Part shown: piece after piece, positions 511-9,401 of the stretch
Numbering within the stretch: position 1 is the stretch's first letter
Layout of the letters: each line of letters opens with the position of its first letter
Source: a virus
Length of the DNA stretch: 24,507 nt
Virus record (IMG/VR): IMGVR_UViG_3300012923_000052
Span: 1 to 24,507 of that record
Direction: 5' to 3' (one strand)
Notes under the pieces: model-generated
What the model was told of the DNA's origin: nothing
Seen by the model: the letters and a program-made list of their open reading frames with translations, nothing else
Database searches by the model: none
Position numbers and translations under genes: made by a program

Positions 511-2023
511 GCAGCATATTCCCTGTGATGACTGTGGTTCCTCCGACGCTCGGTGTGTATACGCCGACGGCCACAGTCATTGCTTTTCATGTAATGCCCA
601 CATACCCGCGAGGAGGGAGAAGGAAGAATATTTGAGTAACGAATTTACTTATGAGTATTTACCATACCGTGGGATTGAGAAAGAAACATTCCGCTTTTAT
701 GATACTAAGACGAAGATAGACAGCGAAGGTAAACCTATTGCTATCGGCTTCCCGTATCCTAACGGATCGATGAAGGTTCGGACATTACCTAAAGGCTTCC
801 ATACTATAGGCGATATAGCAAAAGGAGGTTTATATGGCCGAGACAAGTTCCCCGGTGGATCAAATATTATCATCACGGAGGGGGAGTTCGACGCTCTCTC
901 GCTTTATCAGGTCCTGCGTATTCCTTGTGTCAGTATTCGGAGTAGCAATACTGGGAAGCTGGACGCTGCAATCGATCGATCCTGGCTTAACTCATTCGAA
1001 CGCATTTACCTTGCATTTGATGGAGATGGGCCGGGGAGGGAAGCGGCTGCTGAAGTCGCAAGTCTCTTCGATTACAACAAGATATACCAGCTCAAGTTCC
1101 CCGGCGGTCTCCGAAAAGACGCCAACGACTATCTCCGAGCCGGAGAAGGGGAAGAACTAGCCCGTCTATTCAGGACTGCCAAGAGGTATACGCCTGAACA
1201 AATCGTATCCTCTTGGCATGACTTCGAAAAGATACTGTCCGAAGTACCCAAGCATGGTACACCATACCCGTTTCCTACATTGAACTACATGACTTATGGC
1301 ATTCGGACCGGTGAGTCCGTGTTAGTGACGTCTCAAGAAGGCGTCGGGAAAACGGAGTTTCTCCATGCGATCGAACATTATCTCCTCACCAATACAAGCG
1401 ATGCGGTCGGTGCTATCTACCTCGAAGAGGGTAAGAAACGGCACCTCCAAGCTCTGGCTGGAATACATCTCCAACGACCGATCCATCTACCAGACTGCAG
1501 TGTTACCGACGCTGAAGCGTACGCTGCTGTACAAGCCGTTGTACAAGAAGATGAGCGTCTACACATATATAGCCATTTCGGTTCTGATGATCCAGAAACT
1601 ATTCTGGATGCAATTCGGTTTCTCGTTTCTGCGCGTGGTTGTCGCTATATCCTTCTTGACCACATTACTATGGTTGTGTCCGGTCTCGGAGGAGACAACG
1701 AAAGACGAGCACTAGACTATCTCTCGACCAGACTAGAGATGATGGTTAAAGAACTAGACTTCGCGTTGATCATTGTCAGTCACGTCAATGACGACGGATT
1801 GACGCGAGGGTCTAGGAACATATCGAAGATTGCAGATATTCGTATTGATCTTACGCGGGATATAAAATCCCCAGACCCTATCATAAGGCGCACGATGCAT
1901 GTCATGGTGGGGAAAAATCGCTTCTCTGGAAGGACTGGTCCGGCAGGTGACCTCCTCTTCGATCCCCAAACATACACACTATCCGAAGATTACGGATTTG
2001 CAGAAATTATGAAAGCTAATTAA
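464..2023 (+). CDS. T7 gp4-like bifunctional DNA primase-helicase
   Basis: A 519-residue replication protein that would unwind the fork 5' to 3' and prime the lagging strand; T7 gp4 is 566 aa. The N-terminal zinc finger has Cys21, Cys24, Cys40 and Cys43, the same spacing as T7 gp4. A TOPRIM primase domain follows, with TEGEFDA (Glu139) and AFDGDGPG (first Asp186) as the metal-binding motifs. The C-terminal RecA-type helicase shows a Walker A variant SQEGVGKTE (Lys296), a Walker B strand ending in ILLDH, and an IIVSH switch histidine followed by a LTRGSRNISKIAD segment, typical of the DnaB/gp4 family. ATG 464 is chosen because it gives a full zinc-finger domain, despite a 47-nt overlap with the previous gene. 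Its stop shares one base with the next start (TAATG), which implies translational coupling with the uracil glycosylase. Confidence 0.95.
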   Translation: MSTLEHSKSLNEIIVEQHIPCDDCGSSDARCVYADGHSHCFSCNAHIPARREKEEYLSNEFTYEYLPYRGIEKETFRFYDTKTKIDSEGKPIAIGFPYPNGSMKVRTLPKGFHTIGDIAKGGLYGRDKFPGGSNIIITEGEFDALSLYQVLRIPCVSIRSSNTGKLDAAIDRSWLNSFERIYLAFDGDGPGREAAAEVASLFDYNKIYQLKFPGGLRKDANDYLRAGEGEELARLFRTAKRYTPEQIVSSWHDFEKILSEVPKHGTPYPFPTLNYMTYGIRTGESVLVTSQEGVGKTEFLHAIEHYLLTNTSDAVGAIYLEEGKKRHLQALAGIHLQRPIHLPDCSVTDAEAYAAVQAVVQEDERLHIYSHFGSDDPETILDAIRFLVSARGCRYILLDHITMVVSGLGGDNERRALDYLSTRLEMMVKELDFALIIVSHVNDDGLTRGSRNISKIADIRIDLTRDIKSPDPIIRRTMHVMVGKNRFSGRTGPAGDLLFDPQTYTLSEDYGFAEIMKAN

Positions 2024-2721
2024 TGATTTATCCTTGGAAATTGAAATATTGGACTACCGGTGAATGGCAAGTAGTCAACGAAAGACTACACGACATGGAG
2101 AAGAGTCATGAAGTCTATAATCCGACGCGTCGAAACTTATTTAAAGCACTTCAAACTCTCAAGCCCGAGGATTGCAAAGTCGTCATCGTCGGCCAAGACC
2201 CATACCCACAGTCACGATTTGCTACAGGCTACGCGTTCTCTATCCCAGACGGAATTGAAAAAGAGGATTACCCGCCGACTCTCAACACGATATTCAAAGA
2301 ATACCAGAGTGATCTACACTACGGAGTACCACCTAGCGGTAACTTGGAAAAGTGGGGAGACCGGGGAGTACTGTTATGGAACGCTATCCCCAGCTGTCGA
2401 GCAAATCAAAGCCTTAGTCACGACTGGGATGAGTGGTCTTACCTTACACGTGAAATTATCACCAAGCTTTCCGCACAAGGCGGGATCGTTTTTGCTTTTC
2501 TCGGAGCGGTGGCCAGACGTTATATCGAAGATGTCGACTACACAAAAAACGTTTCCTTGGTCACATCACATCCTTCGCCGAGAGGTTCCCTCAACAGTAG
2601 AAATCCATTCCTCGGGTCGCGCATATTCACGACCATCAACGACAAGATAGCTGATTTAGGAGGACAACCAATCGATTGGAGATTGGACGATGCCAAAGGT
2701 AAAGGAAATCCTAGTCCGTAA
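2023..2721 (+). CDS. Uracil-DNA glycosylase, family 1 (Ung-like)
   Basis: A 232-residue enzyme predicted to cut uracil bases out of DNA. The water-activating loop reads VIVGQDPYP (catalytic Asp59). LLWNA gives the uracil-recognition Asn120, and TSHPSPRGS (His183) matches the HPSPLS leucine-loop motif of family 1. The length equals that of bacterial Ung (about 230 aa). The usual GQDPYH is GQDPYP here, a variant I believe also occurs in some cellular Ungs. The gene is coupled to the primase-helicase by a one-base overlap and sits in the replication block. That suggests it removes uracil from replicating phage DNA or acts on uracil-containing host or rival DNA. Its presence argues that the phage genome does not use uracil in place of thymine. 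Confidence 0.93.
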   Translation: MIYPWKLKYWTTGEWQVVNERLHDMEKSHEVYNPTRRNLFKALQTLKPEDCKVVIVGQDPYPQSRFATGYAFSIPDGIEKEDYPPTLNTIFKEYQSDLHYGVPPSGNLEKWGDRGVLLWNAIPSCRANQSLSHDWDEWSYLTREIITKLSAQGGIVFAFLGAVARRYIEDVDYTKNVSLVTSHPSPRGSLNSRNPFLGSRIFTTINDKIADLGGQPIDWRLDDAKGKGNPSP

Positions 2722-2842
2722 GGAATGGAACGGACAAGTCTGGTATGAGACCAAGCCGGTAGAGGAAAAAGACGAAGAAAAAGACGAGAAAACTAGTCTC
2801 GACCCATTTCCCCGGTATGTTGGTACTCCCGACCCGAAATAA
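2690..2842 (+). CDS. Small highly charged protein (50 aa), unknown function
   Basis: A 50-codon frame starting at ATG 2690, inside the 3' end of the uracil glycosylase gene, and ending at TAA 2840-2842. GGAG about 9 nt upstream is a reasonable ribosome binding site. The product begins with a basic stretch (MPKVKEILVRK), has a middle run alternating Glu, Lys and Asp (EEKDEEKDEK), and ends Pro-rich. No family is recognised. The case rests on the ribosome binding site, the tight packing and the lack of any other gene filling the gap. Confidence 0.55.
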   Translation: MPKVKEILVRKEWNGQVWYETKPVEEKDEEKDEKTSLDPFPRYVGTPDPK

Positions 2843-2856
2843 CGCACCAGCGGGCT

Positions 2857-2875
2857 TCCTAGGGCATCCTAGGGC
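2857..2875 (+). repeat. Tandem TCCTAGGGC repeat that can fold as a hairpin
   Basis: TCCTAGGGC occurs at 2857-2865 and 2867-2875 with a period of 10. Each copy contains the palindrome CCTAGG, so 2858-2863 and 2868-2873 can pair over a GCAT loop. It lies in the short gap before the next small gene, just upstream of its ribosome binding site. It could be an RNA processing or regulatory site; this is inference. Confidence 0.5.
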
Positions 2876-2895
2876 CTATCTAGAAGGAGTCGACC

Positions 2896-3063
2896 ATGCA
2901 GAAATACACCAGATCCTTCATAGAATTCCAACTTTCAGGGGTTGAGCCGTTATTTGCGTGGGAAGTCAGGGAATACGGTAAGCCAGACTACTTCACGAAG
3001 TGGCGGAGGCACTATTTATTAAAACGGTTATTAGATATTCAGTTAAAGGAATTTGACAGATGA
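2896..3063 (+). CDS. Small basic protein (55 aa), unknown function
   Basis: Frame of 55 codons starting at ATG 2896, with a strong ribosome binding site (GAAGGAG, about 7 nt before the start) and stopping at 3061-3063. The product has aromatic residues in its first half and a basic amphipathic C-terminal stretch (WRRHYLLKRLLDIQLKE) that could be a helix. Its stop overlaps the next start as ATGA. No family is recognised. Confidence 0.7.
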   Translation: MQKYTRSFIEFQLSGVEPLFAWEVREYGKPDYFTKWRRHYLLKRLLDIQLKEFDR

Positions 3064-3374
3064 AAACAGGCACAGCCGAAATCATCGACTTCCAACAAGC
3101 GAAGGCTCAGACGGCAGGTAGTGGAGGAGGAGACGATTACTTTGCGGGTATGAAGTTAGGGACTATATTTTGCTGTGCGTTGAATGGAAGTAATACTTCC
3201 TTCTTAGACGAATATATGTTATGTTCTAAAGCCGGTGTGACGGTTCTGCTACAGAACGCCCACGATGGACGGTTTGAACGTCACATCGGTTATAAATTCT
3301 GGAAACAGAATACGCTAGTGCAAATTCTGCACATCCCGACAGAAAAAGAAGAAGAAAATGGGAAAAGTGTATAG
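3060..3374 (+). CDS. Hypothetical phage protein (104 aa)
   Basis: Starts at ATG 3060, overlapping the previous stop by 4 nt, which suggests coupled translation. Features visible are an N-terminal IIDFQQAKA segment, a Gly/Ser-rich linker near residues 19-25, two adjacent Cys (FCCALNG), and an acidic/basic tail (EKEEENGK). The frame between looks like a small alpha/beta domain, but no motif or family is recognised. Confidence 0.75.
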   Translation: MKTGTAEIIDFQQAKAQTAGSGGGDDYFAGMKLGTIFCCALNGSNTSFLDEYMLCSKAGVTVLLQNAHDGRFERHIGYKFWKQNTLVQILHIPTEKEEENGKSV

Positions 3375-3531
3375 CTACGACCAAGCTCATTGGTCGACTA
3401 TGCGCATGGTACAAGAGGCTAAGAAGTGGTGCGAGGAACGCAACCAAGACGGTTCTCGAACCGGCAGTATCAAAGAACACGATGCTGTCCTGAAGTCTCT
3501 CATCAGCGCACATTCGGAAGAGGCTGCATAG
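3358..3531 (+). CDS. Hypothetical small protein (57 aa)
   Basis: Frame of 57 codons from ATG 3358, overlapping the upstream gene by 17 nt, to TAG 3529-3531. The ribosome binding site is weak and purine-rich (AAGAAGAA). The product is hydrophilic and probably helical, with no recognisable domain. The stop codon lies in the loop of a 9-bp hairpin (3516-3540), so a helix in the mRNA covers the end of this gene. Confidence 0.6.
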   Translation: MGKVYSYDQAHWSTMRMVQEAKKWCEERNQDGSRTGSIKEHDAVLKSLISAHSEEAA

Positions 3532-3540
3532 GCCTCTTCC
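3516..3540 (+). other. Hairpin spanning a stop codon, possible RNA processing site
   Basis: GGAAGAGGC (3516-3524) pairs perfectly with GCCTCTTCC (3532-3540) around a 7-nt loop that holds the stop codon of the 57-aa gene. There is no T tract after it, so it is not a normal intrinsic terminator. A role as RNase III site or mRNA 3'-end stabiliser, as in T7 transcripts, is inference. Confidence 0.55.
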
Positions 3541-3571
3541 CTTAGGTCATACCGACCGAACGGAGATTGCA

Positions 3572-3715
3572 ATGCCTTGGTATACACACACTCTGATGAT
3601 TGTCACTTGTGTCATCGTCATCATCGTCGCCGGCGTCTGGCTCAGCAAGAATGTATCCTATGGGTGCATCGATCTGGGTTTCATCAAACACTGTGGTGCG
3701 ACAGTCACCCGATAA
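3572..3715 (+). CDS. Small single-pass membrane protein (47 aa)
   Basis: Frame of 47 codons from ATG 3572 with GGAG about 8 nt upstream, stopping at 3713-3715. Residues 8-24 are strongly hydrophobic (LMIVTCVIVIIVAGVWL), one membrane segment, followed by a short tail with two Cys and a C-terminal TVTR. No family is recognised. Small membrane peptides of this kind are common in phage early regions, and the function cannot be stated. Confidence 0.65.
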   Translation: MPWYTHTLMIVTCVIVIIVAGVWLSKNVSYGCIDLGFIKHCGATVTR

Positions 3716-3720
3716 AGATT

Positions 3721-3745
3721 GTTGGCCTGTATCTAGCAGGCCAAC
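3721..3745 (+). other. Strong hairpin just upstream of the DNA polymerase gene
   Basis: GTTGGCCTG (3721-3729) pairs with CAGGCCAAC (3737-3745) over a 7-nt loop TATCTAG. It ends 12 nt before the polymerase ATG and has no T tract, so it looks like an RNA processing or translation-control element rather than a terminator. Confidence 0.55.
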
Positions 3746-3757
3746 ATTAATGAGATT

Positions 3758-5717: not shown

Positions 5718-5888
5718 ATGAAAGATTGGAATGTAGAATACGATTATACCATGCGCACCGGTGGTGCTATGACGTTTCAGGCAGAGACCCGTGACGAAGC
5801 GGAGAGCCTTGGTTATGATTACGTTCGTGAGACATACCCGGACGCTATTGAAATTGAAATTGTAGAAGTGGATGAAATTAAGAAGTGA
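5718..5888 (+). CDS. Small acidic protein (56 aa), unknown function
   Basis: Frame of 56 codons from ATG 5718, 10 nt after the polymerase stop, with AAGGA about 8 nt upstream, to TGA 5886-5888. The product is acidic and patterned like a small beta/alpha fold: WNVEYDYTM, a central helix rich in Glu and Ala (TRDEAESLGYDYV), then IEIEIVEVDE. The A of its stop codon is the A of the next start, giving coupling to the putative SSB. No family name is claimed. Confidence 0.7.
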   Translation: MKDWNVEYDYTMRTGGAMTFQAETRDEAESLGYDYVRETYPDAIEIEIVEVDEIKK

Positions 5889-6400
5889 TGGCTAATTACG
5901 ATAAGACGAAGCGCCTTTCCGTCAAAGGTAAGTGCAAGTGGGCTCATGTAACTCGATTGAATAGGTTCGAGGAATGGTCTCTAGAGTTATGGCCTACCCC
6001 TGAAGATCTTGAAGTTATTCGGGAACTTCAGAGTAGAGGTCTGAAGAATACTATGAGAAAGGACGAGGATGGATACAACATCCGATTTAAAAGAAGCCCG
6101 AAAAGAGACATCCGACTCAGGACTGGAGAAGTCAAGACACTTATTTTCTCTCCTCCTACTGTCGCTATGTCTGATGGTTCCCCCCTTCCTAGTGGGGTAT
6201 CTATTGGGAATGGCAGCGATGTTACCGTCATCCTTGAAGTGTATACTCATGGAACTCCAGGAGGCGGTAAGGCCGTTGCAGCTAGGTTAGAAGGTGTCCG
6301 AGTAGACAATCTTGTCCCGTTCAATCCGGACTCAGACTATGATGTTGAGACGAAAGCGAAGGTAGACGAGCTGAGAGATCAGCCCGAACATACCTTCTGA
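5888..6400 (+). CDS. Putative phage single-stranded DNA-binding protein (170 aa)
   Basis: Likely start is ATG 5888, giving 170 aa; a GTG one codon earlier overlaps the previous stop and is less likely. The N-terminal part (VKGKCKWAHVTRLNRFEEWSL) and a strand-rich body with Gly/Ser loops fit an OB-fold protein. The C-terminus becomes acidic (DSDYDVETKAKVDEL) and ends in Phe, as in T7 gp2.5, where the acidic tail and terminal Phe contact the polymerase and helicase. Position right after the DNA polymerase supports a role at the replication fork. No sequence motif proves DNA binding. It is the last protein gene before the giant RNA region, whose first helix begins only 11 nt after the stop. Confidence 0.6.
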   Translation: MANYDKTKRLSVKGKCKWAHVTRLNRFEEWSLELWPTPEDLEVIRELQSRGLKNTMRKDEDGYNIRFKRSPKRDIRLRTGEVKTLIFSPPTVAMSDGSPLPSGVSIGNGSDVTVILEVYTHGTPGGGKAVAARLEGVRVDNLVPFNPDSDYDVETKAKVDELRDQPEHTF

Positions 6401-6410
6401 TACCATGATC

Positions 6411-6496
6411 CCGTGAGCAGGGCAAACCGTCTGAAGTAGGCCCGCGGAGTGACGATCCGCTCACGGTTCCTCCCGCCGTCCATAGGCGGTAAGAGG
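6411..6496 (+). other. 5' domain of the giant RNA: stacked helices
   Basis: CCGTGA (6411-6416) pairs with TCACGG (6461-6466), extendable to 8 bp as CCGTGAGC/GCTCACGG. Directly stacked on its 3' side is GCGGA (6444-6448) with TCCGC (6456-6460). The next hairpin joins CCTC (6469-6472) to GAGG (6493-6496) and CCGCC (6473-6477) to GGCGG (6485-6489), over a GTCCATA loop. This dense start lies only 11 nt after the SSB stop codon. Confidence 0.65.
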
Positions 6497-6523
6497 TGTG
6501 GAGCTGCATAGAGGCGACTCTGG

Positions 6524-6706
6524 CGGCTAGAGACGACAGCCGGGATTGGAGTAAGACTCCACGTCTGGAGTGAATGAAGCAAATTCCTCAGTCGAAAACC
6601 ACAGCCCTGAAAGAGGCCGGGCATGAGAGTCCGAGACGTCTAGTCTCGTCTGTGATTGAGGTCGTGGAGTGAAATATACGGAGATGCCACGTTAATCCGC
6701 CGTATA
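6524..6706 (+). other. Giant RNA hairpins, second block
   Basis: Readable helices are CGGCT (6524-6528) with AGCCG (6538-6542), and TGGAGT (6547-6552) with ACTCCA (6556-6561) over a 3-nt loop. CGAGAC (6632-6637) pairs with GTCTCG (6643-6648), and TATACGG (6675-6681) with CCGTATA (6700-6706). All are perfect; each alone could arise by chance, but their spacing makes a folded RNA likely. Confidence 0.6.
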
Positions 6707-6774
6707 CCCCGCACTAGTGTGAAGACTTAGTTGTCAAGCAATAGGCGCTGAAGGGACACCCTAAACAAAAGGGA

Positions 6775-6985
6775 ACCGGTGCGAACCCGGTAAAGAACTG
6801 GAGCGTGAGCGGACTTTGTCATAAGCAGAACGTGCACCGGTCTCATTAGCCGGTATATAAAACCTCACGAGTGGAACTCGCGGTATCTCTTCGGGAACTG
6901 TGGTAACAGGGAACGATGATCTCCTTAGGAGAATTGATACCAAGGATGCAGCGTAACTCTCCATCTTCCATAGCCGAGGAGTTAC
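6775..6985 (+). other. Giant RNA hairpins, third block with repeated ACCGG stems
   Basis: ACCGG-TGCGAAC-CCGGT (6775-6791) is a 5-bp stem with a T-loop-like 7-nt loop. A second ACCGG (6836-6840) pairs with CCGGT (6850-6854). Further helices are CGAGT (6868-6872) with ACTCG (6876-6880), TCTCC (6920-6924) with GGAGA (6928-6932), and the long GTAACTC (6953-6959) with GAGTTAC (6979-6985). Confidence 0.6.
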
Positions 6986-7022
6986 ACAGTGGCAGAAATG
7001 AGCCAATCTTTCTGATCGAAAT

Positions 7023-7190
7023 AGAGGAGCGTGACCTCTCTCCGCGTCGCGGAGGCCTTGCGGGTAGTAGATCGGACAATGACAGCGGGACGTTCGAGTC
7101 GTCTGAATTAGGTGTAGCTGTCAGTGAAGTACGGATCGCTCTGCGGAATGCAAGCCGGGTGAAACCGGTTAATGTCGTGTCGAGCACGAC
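7023..7190 (+). other. Giant RNA core with an exact tRNA-like T-arm
   Basis: AGAGG (7023-7027) pairs with CCTCT (7035-7039), and CTCCGC (7040-7045) with GCGGAG (7049-7054). A 7-bp helix, TGACAGC (7080-7086) with GCTGTCA (7117-7123), encloses GGACG-TTCGAGT-CGTCT (7088-7104). That inner arm is a 5-bp stem with the canonical tRNA T-loop sequence and a G-C closing pair. Then come CCGG (7155-7158) with CCGG (7165-7168) around a GTGAAA loop, and GTCGTG (7174-7179) with CACGAC (7185-7190). Confidence 0.65.
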
Positions 7191-7239
7191 CTGTGTATCA
7201 AGCTTACAGCCTGGACGGAAGTTAACCACATAACGCCAT

Positions 7240-7383
7240 GCATCGAATGCCGATAGCTAGTCCAGAGACGCTCAATCTCTCGATTAGACTGTTAGGGTAT
7301 AGCAGAAATGCGTAGTGCTCTTCAGGATCAAACGTCCATTAACCGAGACACGCCGTGAAGCGTTGAGGACTGTTCGATCAGTC
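7240..7383 (+). other. Giant RNA hairpins, fifth block
   Basis: GCAT (7240-7243) pairs with ATGC (7247-7250). AGTC (7259-7262) with GACT (7287-7290) encloses AGAGA (7264-7268) with TCTCT (7276-7280), and GACTG (7368-7372) pairs with CAGTC (7379-7383) over a TTCGAT loop. The sequence between 7291 and 7367 has less obvious local pairing and could take part in long-range contacts. Confidence 0.55.
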
Positions 7384-7477
7384 TAGTATGCGACAATCGT
7401 AGACACAGCCTAGGGGAAACCGTCGGGTAGTCTGCTGAGAGTTAAGCATTACTGACCGACCCTGTTTGGATGACAAC

Positions 7478-7730
7478 CGTGAGCGAAGAGCTTACGAAGA
7501 ATGGCACCAGTAGTTGACTGGAGGTCATTGATCTTCCGACATCGGAAGGATATCGAGGTAAGAACTCCTATACGTGGAGCACCGAAAGCTAGATAGTTCT
7601 AGGGCAAGACCGTAAAGCCTGACAGTAACTCAGGTCCCATCTGGACGTAGTCGAGAGAGCTTTCAAGAACATGTTAGTACATCGTTCACAACGATATCAA
7701 ACTAGGAAGAGGGTTAACGACCTATTCCTA
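7478..7730 (+). other. Giant RNA hairpins, sixth block
   Basis: CGTGAGC (7478-7484) pairs with GCTTACG (7490-7496), including a G-U pair that favours the + strand. Others are CCAGT (7507-7511) with ACTGG (7517-7521) and CTTCCG (7533-7538) with CGGAAG (7543-7548). AGAACT (7561-7566) with AGTTCT (7595-7600) closes a small subdomain. CCTGA (7618-7622) pairs with TCAGG (7630-7634), ATCGT (7681-7685) with ACGAT (7691-7695), and TAGGAA (7703-7708) with TTCCTA (7725-7730). Confidence 0.65.
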
Positions 7731-7768
7731 ATCACAGACTACTGACATAAGCCTGCGCGATGGCGATG

Positions 7769-7998
7769 AGCCTAGCCGGAGCTGAATGGAGCAGCGGAAC
7801 TACGACGAGGTGCAATTCCTCAACGCCTAGAGGCTAGAGCAGTTTCACATACTGCTGACCGTAGCTGTAACAGAAGACTCCTTGTCTGCAAGTCCATCAA
7901 TTCAACGCACCAGATTAGTGCACCACCGGAATGGAAGGTACGAGAACCAGACAGATCAACAGTGACCCTCTAGCAGAAGGAGACGCGCTATGTGCGTC
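7769..7998 (+). other. Giant RNA hairpins, seventh block
   Basis: AGCCT (7769-7773) with AGGCT (7831-7835) may close a subdomain that contains GAGG (7807-7810) with CCTC (7818-7821). AGCAGT (7838-7843) pairs with ACTGCT (7851-7856), GCAC (7907-7910) with GTGC (7918-7921), and GACGC (7982-7986) with GCGTC (7994-7998). The last helix overlaps the start codon region of a 21-codon ORF and could control it. Confidence 0.55.
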
Positions 7999-8055
7999 AT
8001 GAACACTGTGTCTAAACTTCTCAAATACCACTCTCGGTTTGAGATGCCGCCTTAA
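7990..8055 (+). CDS. Possible 21-aa peptide near the 3' end of the giant RNA
   Basis: ATG 7990 is preceded by a near-perfect ribosome binding site, AGAAGGAG, ending 7 nt before the start, and runs 21 codons to TAA 8053-8055. The peptide begins MCVMNTVSKLLKYH and carries several basic residues. The helix 7982-7986/7994-7998 straddles the start codon, and a second helix (8020-8025/8038-8043) lies within the ORF. It could be a leader or regulatory peptide for the downstream membrane protein, or a chance ORF in structured RNA. Confidence 0.35.
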   Translation: MCVMNTVSKLLKYHSRFEMPP

Positions 8056-8118
8056 GCAGATTAGGGCGGGAACGTAGTGCCAAGAGCAGTGAAAGCTTCT
8101 TCAGGTATAGTTCCCGCC
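8020..8118 (+). other. 3' terminal stems of the giant RNA region
   Basis: CTCAAA (8020-8025) can pair with TTTGAG (8038-8043). A 9-bp perfect helix joins GGCGGGAAC (8065-8073) to GTTCCCGCC (8110-8118), extended by a G-U pair (8064-8119). CCGCC (8047-8051) could alternatively pair with GGCGG (8065-8069), so two mutually exclusive folds are possible, as in attenuators. There is no T tract after the long helix. Confidence 0.6.
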
Positions 8119-8130
8119 TCCCCAAACTAG

Positions 8131-8148
8131 ACGCCAGCTTCGCTGGCT
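8131..8148 (+). repeat. Hairpin repeat, copy 1 (ACGCCAGCTTCGCTGGCT)
   Basis: The 18-nt sequence is identical to 11377-11394. GCCAGC (8133-8138) pairs with GCTGGC (8142-8147) over a 3-nt TTC loop. It sits between the giant RNA and the ribosome binding site (AGGAG) of the 100-aa gene, which suggests a processing or stabilising hairpin used at two transcript junctions. Confidence 0.7.
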
Positions 8149-8160
8149 TAGGAGACGAAC

Positions 8161-8463
8161 ATGAAGACCCTCGAACGAATGATGTTGGAGATGCTCTTCG
8201 ATAAGAAACTGGAAGCGCCTCCGACAAAGAAGAAAATCGCTAGGGACTTGACAGTGAAGCAATTCATCAAAGTCCTTAAGAACATGCCAGAGTTCAAGAG
8301 AGAGTTTGAAGAAGCTCTGAAACATCTTGAACCGAAGGGCAAAGAAAAAGACAAGCTATCGCTTGGCCAGAAATATATGATGTGGACGTTGGCCGCAATA
8401 ACGTTGCCGCCTCTGTATGTGGCGCTCATTCACGCGCTCTTCACGACAATCTCTGGTAAGTAA
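8161..8463 (+). CDS. Basic protein with one C-terminal membrane segment (100 aa), next to the giant RNA
   Basis: ATG 8161 has AGGAG about 7 nt upstream. The first 75 residues are rich in Lys, Arg and Glu and look helical (KKIARDLTVKQFIKVLKNMPEFKREFEEALKHL in two stretches around residues 25-57). They are followed by a hydrophobic segment at about residues 77-96 (WTLAAITLPPLYVALIHALF) and a short polar end. The likely topology is a charged cytoplasmic head anchored to the inner membrane by its C-terminus. No family is recognised. Its place immediately downstream of the giant RNA, on the same strand and with only a hairpin between, makes it the obvious candidate protein partner, by analogy with OapA beside OLE RNA. 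It might alternatively be a small lysis or superinfection protein. Confidence 0.75.
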   Translation: MKTLERMMLEMLFDKKLEAPPTKKKIARDLTVKQFIKVLKNMPEFKREFEEALKHLEPKGKEKDKLSLGQKYMMWTLAAITLPPLYVALIHALFTTISGK

Positions 8464-8534: not shown

Positions 8535-9401
8535 ATGAAAAGCATAGATACTCTCATCAAGGATATACAGAGTCTTGTCGGAAACAAACAAGGATGGTTC
8601 ACCGAAGAGGTGGCAAAGACGTACGCCGAGGAAGTCACAGTCAGACTCCGACGCTCGTTTGGAGCTAGACAGGATGTACCTAGACTACGTCTCAGCCAAA
8701 TGGGCCCGAAGTGCCCAAGAGCATTGTGGCACTCCATTCATAGTCAAGGGCTTGCAGAACCCCTCCCCGCTTCCGCCGTGGTCAAATTCACTTATGGACA
8801 TCTAATCGAAGCCCTCGTAATCGCGTGGGCTAAACAAGCTGGACACGAAGTAACAGGAGAGCAAGATGAGCTATCTCTTCTCGATATCACCGGTCATAGA
8901 GATTGTGTTATTGACGGTTGTGTGGTCGACGTCAAATCTACTGCCAGTCGCAGCTTTGTCAAGTTCAAGGATCACACGCTTAGGGATTCTGACAGTTTTG
9001 GGTATCTGGATCAACTGGATGGCTATCTTGCAGCTTCGGCTAATGACCCTCTGGTCAGAACTAAAGATGTCGGATATTTATTCGCTGTTGACAAACAACT
9101 AGGACATATGGTGCTTTATGAACACAAGCTCAGAGAAGCTAGTATCCGTGAAAGAATTCAAAGCTATAAAGAAATCATTGCAAGAAGCGAACCTCCCGCC
9201 TGCACGTGCGGAACAGTACCTGACGGTCAAGCGGGCAATATCAAGCTTGACGTCAACGCAAGTTATTCTGCTTTCAAGTATGCTTGCTTCCCAAACCTCC
9301 GGACTTTTCTTTATTCCGACGGACCAAGATACCTCACCAAGGTAGTGAGAAAACCAGATGTAATCGAGGTAAATCGTCATGGACAAATCGTATATAACTA
9401 A
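8535..9401 (+). CDS. RecB/Cas4-like PD-(D/E)XK exonuclease (288 aa)
   Basis: Predicted nuclease that could replace T7 gp6 exonuclease, degrading DNA during recombination or host-chromosome breakdown. The PD-(D/E)XK core is visible: GHLIE (His89), GHRD (Asp123), VVDVKST (Asp132, Lys134) and the RecB-type motif YLDQLDGYL. Four cysteines, Cys60 (KCPR) and Cys223, Cys225 and Cys251 near the C-terminus, suggest an iron-sulphur cluster as in Cas4 and AddB. An upstream GTG at 8484 would start inside the 8468-8520 hairpin and add residues with no resemblance to the family, so ATG 8535 is preferred. That start lacks a normal ribosome binding site and has the leader ATTGGATTAAAATG, which also occurs at the 188-aa gene. 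Confidence 0.88.
   Translation: MKSIDTLIKDIQSLVGNKQGWFTEEVAKTYAEEVTVRLRRSFGARQDVPRLRLSQMGPKCPRALWHSIHSQGLAEPLPASAVVKFTYGHLIEALVIAWAKQAGHEVTGEQDELSLLDITGHRDCVIDGCVVDVKSTASRSFVKFKDHTLRDSDSFGYLDQLDGYLAASANDPLVRTKDVGYLFAVDKQLGHMVLYEHKLREASIRERIQSYKEIIARSEPPACTCGTVPDGQAGNIKLDVNASYSAFKYACFPNLRTFLYSDGPRYLTKVVRKPDVIEVNRHGQIVYN

Follow-up and report, generated by a model that had tools for sequence, protein, structure and literature searches.

The IMG/VR virus record analysed here, a stretch of 24,507 bases that we call the window, carries on its plus strand a replication module in the order primase-helicase, uracil-DNA-glycosylase (UDG)-like protein, family-A polymerase and gp2.5-like single-stranded DNA-binding protein (SSB), followed after a spacing of 1.76 kb by an open reading frame (ORF) of 100 amino acids (aa), a Cas4-domain exonuclease and an endonuclease VII, all in the same orientation. 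Comparison of this spacing with its counterparts in related phages demonstrates a predicted plus-strand RNA family with a conserved short ORF ending in Pro-Pro-stop, hereafter the micro-ORF, and a co-inherited gene of a putative membrane protein, the 100-aa ORF of the window (Table 1). A sequence-only reading had proposed a giant structured RNA at 6401-8130 between an SSB-like gene and a membrane-protein gene; the observation was confirmed and its interpretation supported, with some amendments. Its description of the genome as T7-like proved too loose, as the nearest annotated relatives belong to Zobellviridae/Cobavirinae and to unclassified roseophages, with polymerase identities below 40%.

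Table 1. Positions of the RNA, its elements and the adjoining genes in the window.
Feature	Position	Strand	Basis or remark
gp2.5-like SSB gene (upstream neighbour)	5885-6400	+	PHROG 112, E 2e-6
Giant structured RNA	6398-8125	+	From the SSB stop codon to the final conserved helix upstream of the membrane-protein gene; about 1.73 kb, extent approximate; covariation against shuffles, polymerase-DNA controls, 21 strict helices, Rfam negative, synteny
Hairpin with recurrent 7-nt loop CUCAUUA, closing stems varying	6836-6854	+	Loop on stems of at least 5 base pairs in 19 of 68 gaps
Hairpin resembling a tRNA T-arm, with loop UUCGAGU	7088-7104	+	Two-sided changes at 4 of 5 pairs in family A
Two-hairpin module	7144-7196	+	Alignment A3, pair counts, model R1
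Conserved hairpin, CAGAUUA loop	7906-7922	+	Outermost pair unformed in the window itself
Shine-Dalgarno AAGGAG of the micro-ORF	7977-7982	+	Sequence
Micro-ORF MCVMNTVSKLLKYHSRFEMPP-stop, 21 codons, candidate ribosome-arrest peptide	7990-8055	+	Comparison
Stable stem, 8064-8073 with 8110-8119	8064-8119	+	Just downstream of Pro-Pro-stop
Gene of a 100-aa protein rich in Lys/Glu, with a single hydrophobic helix at the C terminus	8161-8463	+	Tail-anchored by inspection
Cas4-domain exonuclease gene (downstream neighbour)	8535-9401	+	PHROG 1990, E 1e-25

Relatives were collected by a polymerase search that found 89 IMG/VR stretches, 80 of which were kept as loci; 73 SSB-exonuclease gaps were extracted, 64 of them extending to the exonuclease. 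Near-duplicates (L014, L020, L043, L049 and L055) were excluded from the counts over 68 gaps and from the Pro-Pro-stop counts over 65 loci, and the 65 loci of the Pro-Pro-stop counts, which include L094-L098 and omit L048 (missed by the second hidden Markov model (HMM) of the membrane protein), differ from the 65 gaps with a membrane protein. Where both genes are present, SSB and exonuclease lie 1.5-4.2 kb apart, with long ORF-free parts, and the membrane-protein ORF begins 1191-3750 nucleotides (nt; median 1839, 65 loci) after the SSB stop. The RNA itself is usually 1.2-2 kb long in relatives, a figure that is only estimated because longer gaps contain extra ORFs behind the SSB gene.

Three subfamilies (A, B and C, with 5, 8 and 4 sequences; family A comprises the window, L002, L015, L016 and L070) were aligned with MAFFT and folded with RNAalifold against 16 column shuffles each. 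Consensus energies of −691.7, −374.6 and −549.1 compared with shuffled means of −454.5, −247.5 and −384.5 (z −14.7, −10.9 and −14.4), and base pairs with two-sided changes numbered 189, 130 and 139 against shuffled means of 82, 48 and 73; in the family A shuffles the spread was 16.1 for the energy and 10 for the pair count, with a maximum of 102 pairs. Helices are thus kept by compensatory change far above the column shuffles, and the refuting conditions named by the sequence-only reading came out mostly in its favour. The family A alignment yielded 101 predicted helices, 21 of which were strict (no fewer than 4 base pairs, two-sided changes at 2 or more of them, pairing in 90% or more), while polymerase DNA of the same family A phages gave z values of 0.2 for energy and 0.8 for covariation (11 shuffles).

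The reverse complement covaries too, because Watson-Crick pairs must covary on both strands, and folds worse than the plus strand (−667 vs −692 and −336 vs −375). Among pairs predicted on both strands in the three families, 131 G-U cells stood against 82 A-C cells, confirming the previously noted preference of G-U pairs for the plus strand (one-sided binomial p 0.0005, the cells coming from related sequences that are not independent). In the energy test suggested by the sequence-only reading, the minimum free energy (MFE) of 6401-8125 was lower than that of 20 dinucleotide shuffles (−594.5 vs −552.4 ± 9.8, z −4.3); for coding DNA from the window z is −5.4, and single-sequence folding energy is therefore non-discriminating here. 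The suggestion that the stretch is not RNA at all, and consists of spacer DNA, of genes in decay or of some structure in the DNA, for instance an origin, would suit its location in the replication module, at a junction with other insertions in some relatives. We regard it as hardly tenable: compensatory changes far above controls already contradict it, and the plus-strand G-U excess and the conserved micro-ORF also speak against it.

No known RNA class was recognised, in agreement with the initial impression. Rfam at gathering score returned no match in the whole window, including group I/II introns, HEARO, transfer-messenger RNA (tmRNA) and riboswitches; ARAGORN found no tmRNA, a permissive Rfam scan of 6380-8180 gave only DnaX (E 1.5) and CLRN1-AS1 (E 1.6), both at chance level, and the Rfam scan of 11 relatives gave one tRNA and nothing else. 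Literature searches, which covered few subscription papers, found no earlier report of this RNA. With hundreds of nucleotides of covarying nested helices and no long ORF, the region falls, by a loose definition, among the ornate large RNAs, and to our knowledge it would be the largest such class, roughly twice the size of GOLLD.

In blastn comparisons L002 matched the window at 94% over the entire RNA, and the remaining matches were patches in L015, L016 and L070 and 27 nt in L047; all 622 gap-gap matches were on the same strand. Iterated profile searches of the non-coding stretches, from which the final 220 nt before a membrane-protein match were excluded where such a match exists, joined 60 of the 73 into one component, and reversed sequences gave 0 matches. 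A DNA search of INPHARED phages gave zero matches, a profile search of genome contigs with the polymerase alignment returned no relative, and searches for additional family A members by DNA pattern or SSB recovered the same contigs only, apart from L093, an SSB relative of another subfamily that shares its contig with L078.

Short words recur across the 68 gaps far above their frequency in shuffled gaps, among them GGTTCGAGTCC, which matches a tRNA T-arm in its loop and the inner part of its stem, CTCATTAG and CCNCCTTAA, which reads Pro-Pro-stop when translated. T-arm-like hairpins of the form G-UUC[A/G]ANN-C on stems of at least 5 base pairs occur 87 times on the plus strand, in 50 of the 68 gaps, and 0 times on the minus strand; 691 kb of other plus-strand DNA from the same loci contains 7. 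Most aligned relatives carry such a T-arm as the second hairpin of the two-hairpin module, in which a hairpin with a GUG[A/C]AA loop is followed by a short AUG-like linker; in family A the second hairpin has a UCGAG loop. Across 17 aligned loci this module shows two-sided changes in 10 of 11 pairs, with a covariation score of 0.743 vs 0.238 ± 0.037 for shuffled alignments and at most 0.166 when slid.

Model R1 of the module, for which E-values are rough and some matches shortened, scored the window, itself among the 17 sequences used to build it, at E 3.5e-16, and gave 80 matches (E up to 1) in 70 RNA loci. All but one are on the plus strand, and 76 of these 79 lie within the RNA region; the exceptions are in L052, L062 and L065, those in L052 and L062 being tRNA genes. 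Full-length matches at E of at most 0.01 were present in 32 of the 70 loci, 15 independent of model building and 17 used for it, and 48 outgroup loci contained four partial matches, each in a tRNA-Arg gene. These hairpins could mean that the RNA mimics tRNA as a decoy, binding tRNA-handling enzymes or the ribosome and diverting them from the host. The strand bias of the 87 hairpins speaks for such a decoy, yet 18 of the 68 gaps contain no hairpin under the pattern used, the second hairpin of the family A module has a UCGAG loop, and T-loops are also common tertiary-contact modules; we consider this explanation very improbable.

The window contains no tRNA gene. In the stretches of 60 relatives, 6 had a single tRNA call each and none had a tRNA island; only two calls fell inside the RNA region. 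One is a tRNA-Ile (GAT) gene after SSB at 9425-9496 of L011 (ARAGORN; 46 bits in Rfam), and the other, at 9065-9160 of L045, is an odd ARAGORN call with a 4-nt anticodon that is possibly a domain of the giant RNA and not a tRNA. A further motif, GGAGGCTAAA, is absent from the window and occurs in the RNA regions of 14 of the 68 gaps, including L033 and L072, being common to distant relatives.

The claim that the region holds no credible long protein gene stood, with the correction that a short ORF is conserved. Within 7234-8020 there is no ORF of at least 50 aa on either strand, the two longest ORFs of the RNA region (105 aa on the plus and 127 aa on the minus strand) have no Pfam match, the equivalent 2037 nt of L016 lack an ORF of at least 80 aa, and no long ORF is kept in the homologues. 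Among the ORFs tested in family A (46) and family B (32), the micro-ORF alone keeps start and stop in all aligned members without in-frame stops, its nested starts being likewise kept in family A, and a general coding explanation was rejected. The synonymous fraction of its changes is 0.40 in A and 0.50 in B vs 0.16 and 0.13 overall. In family C, an 11-aa ORF that keeps start and stop shows 2 synonymous and 10 non-synonymous changes and was taken as chance.

In 60 of the 65 de-duplicated loci a micro-ORF ending in Pro-Pro-stop lies no more than 330 nt from the match to the membrane-protein HMM. It spans 8-33 codons (median 14) and has a Shine-Dalgarno match of 4-7 nt in 60 of 60 cases (just 4 nt in 13), and 46 of the 59 CCNCCTTAA sites on the plus strand of 840 kb sit at most 260 nt before a membrane-protein match. 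The first Pro codon varies (CCT 21, CCA 19, CCC 11 and CCG 9; n = 60), the second is CCT in 49 of 60 and the stop TAA in 59 of 60; among the 60, 27 have Arg and 20 have Gln as the preceding residue, so that the ending is mostly R-P-P-stop or Q-P-P-stop and does not match the RAPP signature R-A/G-P-P. An anti-Shine-Dalgarno reading of CCUCCUUAA was rejected, its third base varying like synonymous Pro codons. The stop is mostly followed by a stable hairpin: the 65-nt windows after it fold better than random windows of the same RNAs (mean z −2.0 vs −0.35 over 62 loci; z below −1 in 43 vs 18). In L010, L047 and L006 the hairpin after Pro-Pro-stop itself bears a T-loop-like loop (GUUCGAG or close).

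As judged from this conserved micro-ORF near its 3′ end, the predicted RNA is partly an mRNA, and the arrangement, a conserved short ORF ending in Pro-Pro-stop upstream of a gene, is that of a Pro-Pro-stop arrest upstream ORF (uORF). The literature on such peptides is cited here in excerpt. In E. coli, the C-terminal Pro-Pro of YbeL-PP hinders termination, with cleavage at the stop codon and tagging as the outcome, and a stable downstream structure suppresses this cleavage (PMC3834316); for two other Pro-stop uORFs, toeprints place the arrest at the stop codon (PMC10987492), and CruR is a RAPP uORF (PMC9426467). The YbeL-PP model, uA_NSP-stop and CruR resemble the micro-ORF in that their peptides finish with Pro or Pro-Pro, directly before the stop codon or close to it, and several arrest uORFs in these excerpts stand upstream of membrane- or transport-tied genes (PMC3834316, PMC10987492, PMC9426467). 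Unlike them, the micro-ORF is phage-borne on a giant structured RNA, and its peptide of 8-33 residues contrasts with the longer Sec/YidC monitors, whose spacer exceeds 30 residues.

A homologue of the membrane protein, searched with a profile started from the 100-aa protein of the window, is present in 64 of the 64 gaps that extend to the exonuclease; it varies fast, is rich in Lys and Glu in its middle part and, by inspection, has a single hydrophobic helix at the C terminus. In 60 of the 65 loci 40-315 nt separate the end of the micro-ORF from the membrane-protein match, and this proximity favours a giant cis-acting leader, in which the RNA would be the untranslated region of the membrane-protein gene, the micro-ORF a regulatory arrest peptide and the body a sensor, so that the micro-ORF would switch the gene when the host or the infection gives a signal. 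According to the excerpted sources, arrest uORFs of the RAPP type regulate genes downstream of them that serve transport or the membrane machinery (PMC9426467, PMC10987492). A length of 1.2-2 kb, however, far exceeds that of the leaders known to us, a Pro-codon/hairpin switch is not conserved, and there is no evident need for T-arm-like hairpins; we hold a leader to be somewhat unlikely, and a serious alternative nonetheless. A scan limited to sigma-70 promoters and intrinsic terminators found no plus-strand match in 6398-8160, which is compatible both with a giant leader in cis and with a particle that acts in trans. A search for a phage RNA polymerase in six relatives gave no match, and was uninformative since control genomes likewise gave none.

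To place the RNA among phages, the polymerase tree was extended by 59 more loci (L094-L152) and five cultured phages to 123 rows (quick method, midpoint root). One clade of 75 rows, with a Shimodaira-Hasegawa-like approximate likelihood ratio (SH-aLRT) support of 100, contains all 61 rows scored with RNA region and partner gene, the remainder being 13 contigs that are cut and L048, in which the first HMM found the membrane protein and the second missed it. In the 48 rows outside, SSB and exonuclease lie at most 1 kb apart in 32, 6 have larger gaps, 10 are cut, and membrane-protein matches number 0. The SSB and exonuclease homologues of CRP-4, CRP-9 and CRP-13 are 7-93 nt apart, and in CRP-5 and ICBM2 thymidylate synthase and small ORFs separate SSB from the annotated exonuclease. 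Two further scans added L181 (a new contig) and L184 (the other end of the L066 contig), both with membrane protein, Pro-Pro-stop and T-loops.

Judged by gene order and homology, the predicted RNA, the Pro-Pro-stop micro-ORF and the membrane-protein gene are a syntenic module of the whole phage clade, most simply explained by a single gain, and no loss was seen in complete loci of the clade. Outside the clade the SSB-exonuclease junction hosts other insertions (L083, L086, L167 and others without the RNA); in the listed large gaps, ORFs, most of about 220-580 aa, cover about half to most of the larger ones, and the 456-nt gap of L116 has no ORF of 100 aa.

Several ornate RNAs invite comparison, again from excerpted accounts. 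OLE, of 577 nt, has the membrane protein OapA as partner, GOLLD is often >800 nt long, and GOLLD and ROOL often lie near tRNA islands (PMC12286853); GOLLD pull-downs contained bound ribosomes (PMC12286853), and ribosomal protein bS21 has been reported in the OLE complex (PMC12054373). The pairing of a large ornate RNA with a membrane protein in OLE and OapA (PMC12286853) is mirrored by the membrane-protein gene in all complete gaps. OLE differs in being bacterial and only about 600 nt long, while the phage RNA has no Rfam match and its membrane protein no detectable Pfam family or homology to a named family; a Pro-Pro-stop micro-ORF is not mentioned for OLE in the excerpt of PMC12286853.

With GOLLD the RNA shares its phage origin and giant size, and with ROOL the phage or prophage setting of an ornate RNA for which the excerpt gives no established function (PMC12286853). 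These likenesses, including dense covarying helices and the tRNA gene in the L011 region, which recalls the tRNAs sometimes held in the GOLLD linker (PMC12286853), would fit an ornate particle made of RNA only, as with GOLLD and ROOL, in the form of a homo-oligomeric cage; the micro-ORF would then only control the neighbouring gene and play no role in what the RNA does. Against this stand the lack of any match to the Rfam GOLLD or ROOL models and the constant company of the membrane-protein gene (64 of 64 complete gaps) and the micro-ORF (60 of 65 loci). The RNA is longer, at about 1.2-2 kb, than the GOLLD of the excerpt, and its SSB-exonuclease location, with no island in 60 relatives, differs from the gene context of ROOL and from the tRNA-island setting of both. 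We find an RNA-only particle decidedly unlikely.

We favour, at a probability of roughly 45%, a new ornate RNA class that acts as a ribosome- and membrane-linked ribonucleoprotein (RNP). Its anatomy is well supported by the comparisons above; the mechanism, comprising arrest, RNP formation and membrane anchoring, is what we infer. The RNA would be transcribed within the replication-gene transcript, and a ribosome on the micro-ORF would arrest at the stop codon because the C-terminal Pro-Pro hinders termination, staying near the RNA 3′ end against the downstream hairpin. Parked there, it could shield or define that end, gate translation of the membrane protein and bring the folded RNA into a particle bound to the ribosome, which the co-inherited membrane protein would anchor to the membrane during phage replication, as OapA does with OLE RNA. 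In a bolder form, the ribosome would be a structural part of a self-programmed RNA particle and the membrane protein would fix this particle beside the replication apparatus, a proposal that we rate as unlikely.

A number of observations weigh against the ribosome- and membrane-linked RNP. Ribosome arrest at the micro-ORF is suggested by analogy from its Pro-Pro-stop ending, and RNA binding by the membrane protein by analogy only; AlphaFold2 predicts a helix at 68-98 of this protein with low overall confidence (predicted template modelling score 0.28), and 43 members have no Pfam or PHROG family in common. Pro-Pro-stop is missing within 330 nt in 5 of the 65 loci and within about 480 nt in 3, and in subfamily C the Pro-Pro-stop ORF retains its stop in all 3 cases and its start in none, 2 of them having in-frame stops, with 5 synonymous against 35 non-synonymous changes. 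The Shine-Dalgarno score of the micro-ORFs is inflated by picking as start codon the in-frame start with the best Shine-Dalgarno match. A three-strand switch between the Pro codons, a G-rich and a C-rich strand looked attractive in family A and was rejected when a strand swap over 62 loci gave p 0.49. As to the RNA itself, 13 of the 73 stretches are unlinked by sequence to the main component and some profile links possibly run via small inserted ORFs, while polymerase DNA of family B gave a weak signal (z −5.3 for energy and 2.1 for covariation, 11 shuffles; 42 two-sided pairs vs 33 ± 4) that is far below the RNA signal and not nil.

An ornate RNA kept throughout a whole phage clade would combine, in a single unit of inheritance, a membrane protein, hairpins like T-arms and a probable signal for ribosome arrest, which makes the ribosome and membrane idea directly testable. 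Among known ornate RNAs, OLE is tied to the membrane and bS21, and GOLLD is reported to bind ribosomes.

Two minor observations concern the upstream replication genes. The UDG-like protein of the window (2023-2718), between primase-helicase and polymerase, matches Pfam UDG and PHROG 12143, to which no function is assigned there. In L078 (6001-8370) and L080 (6001-8271) the polymerase match is split and longer than usual, and in L078 an endonuclease-VII-like match at 7188-7346 lies inside it, as if a homing element had inserted.

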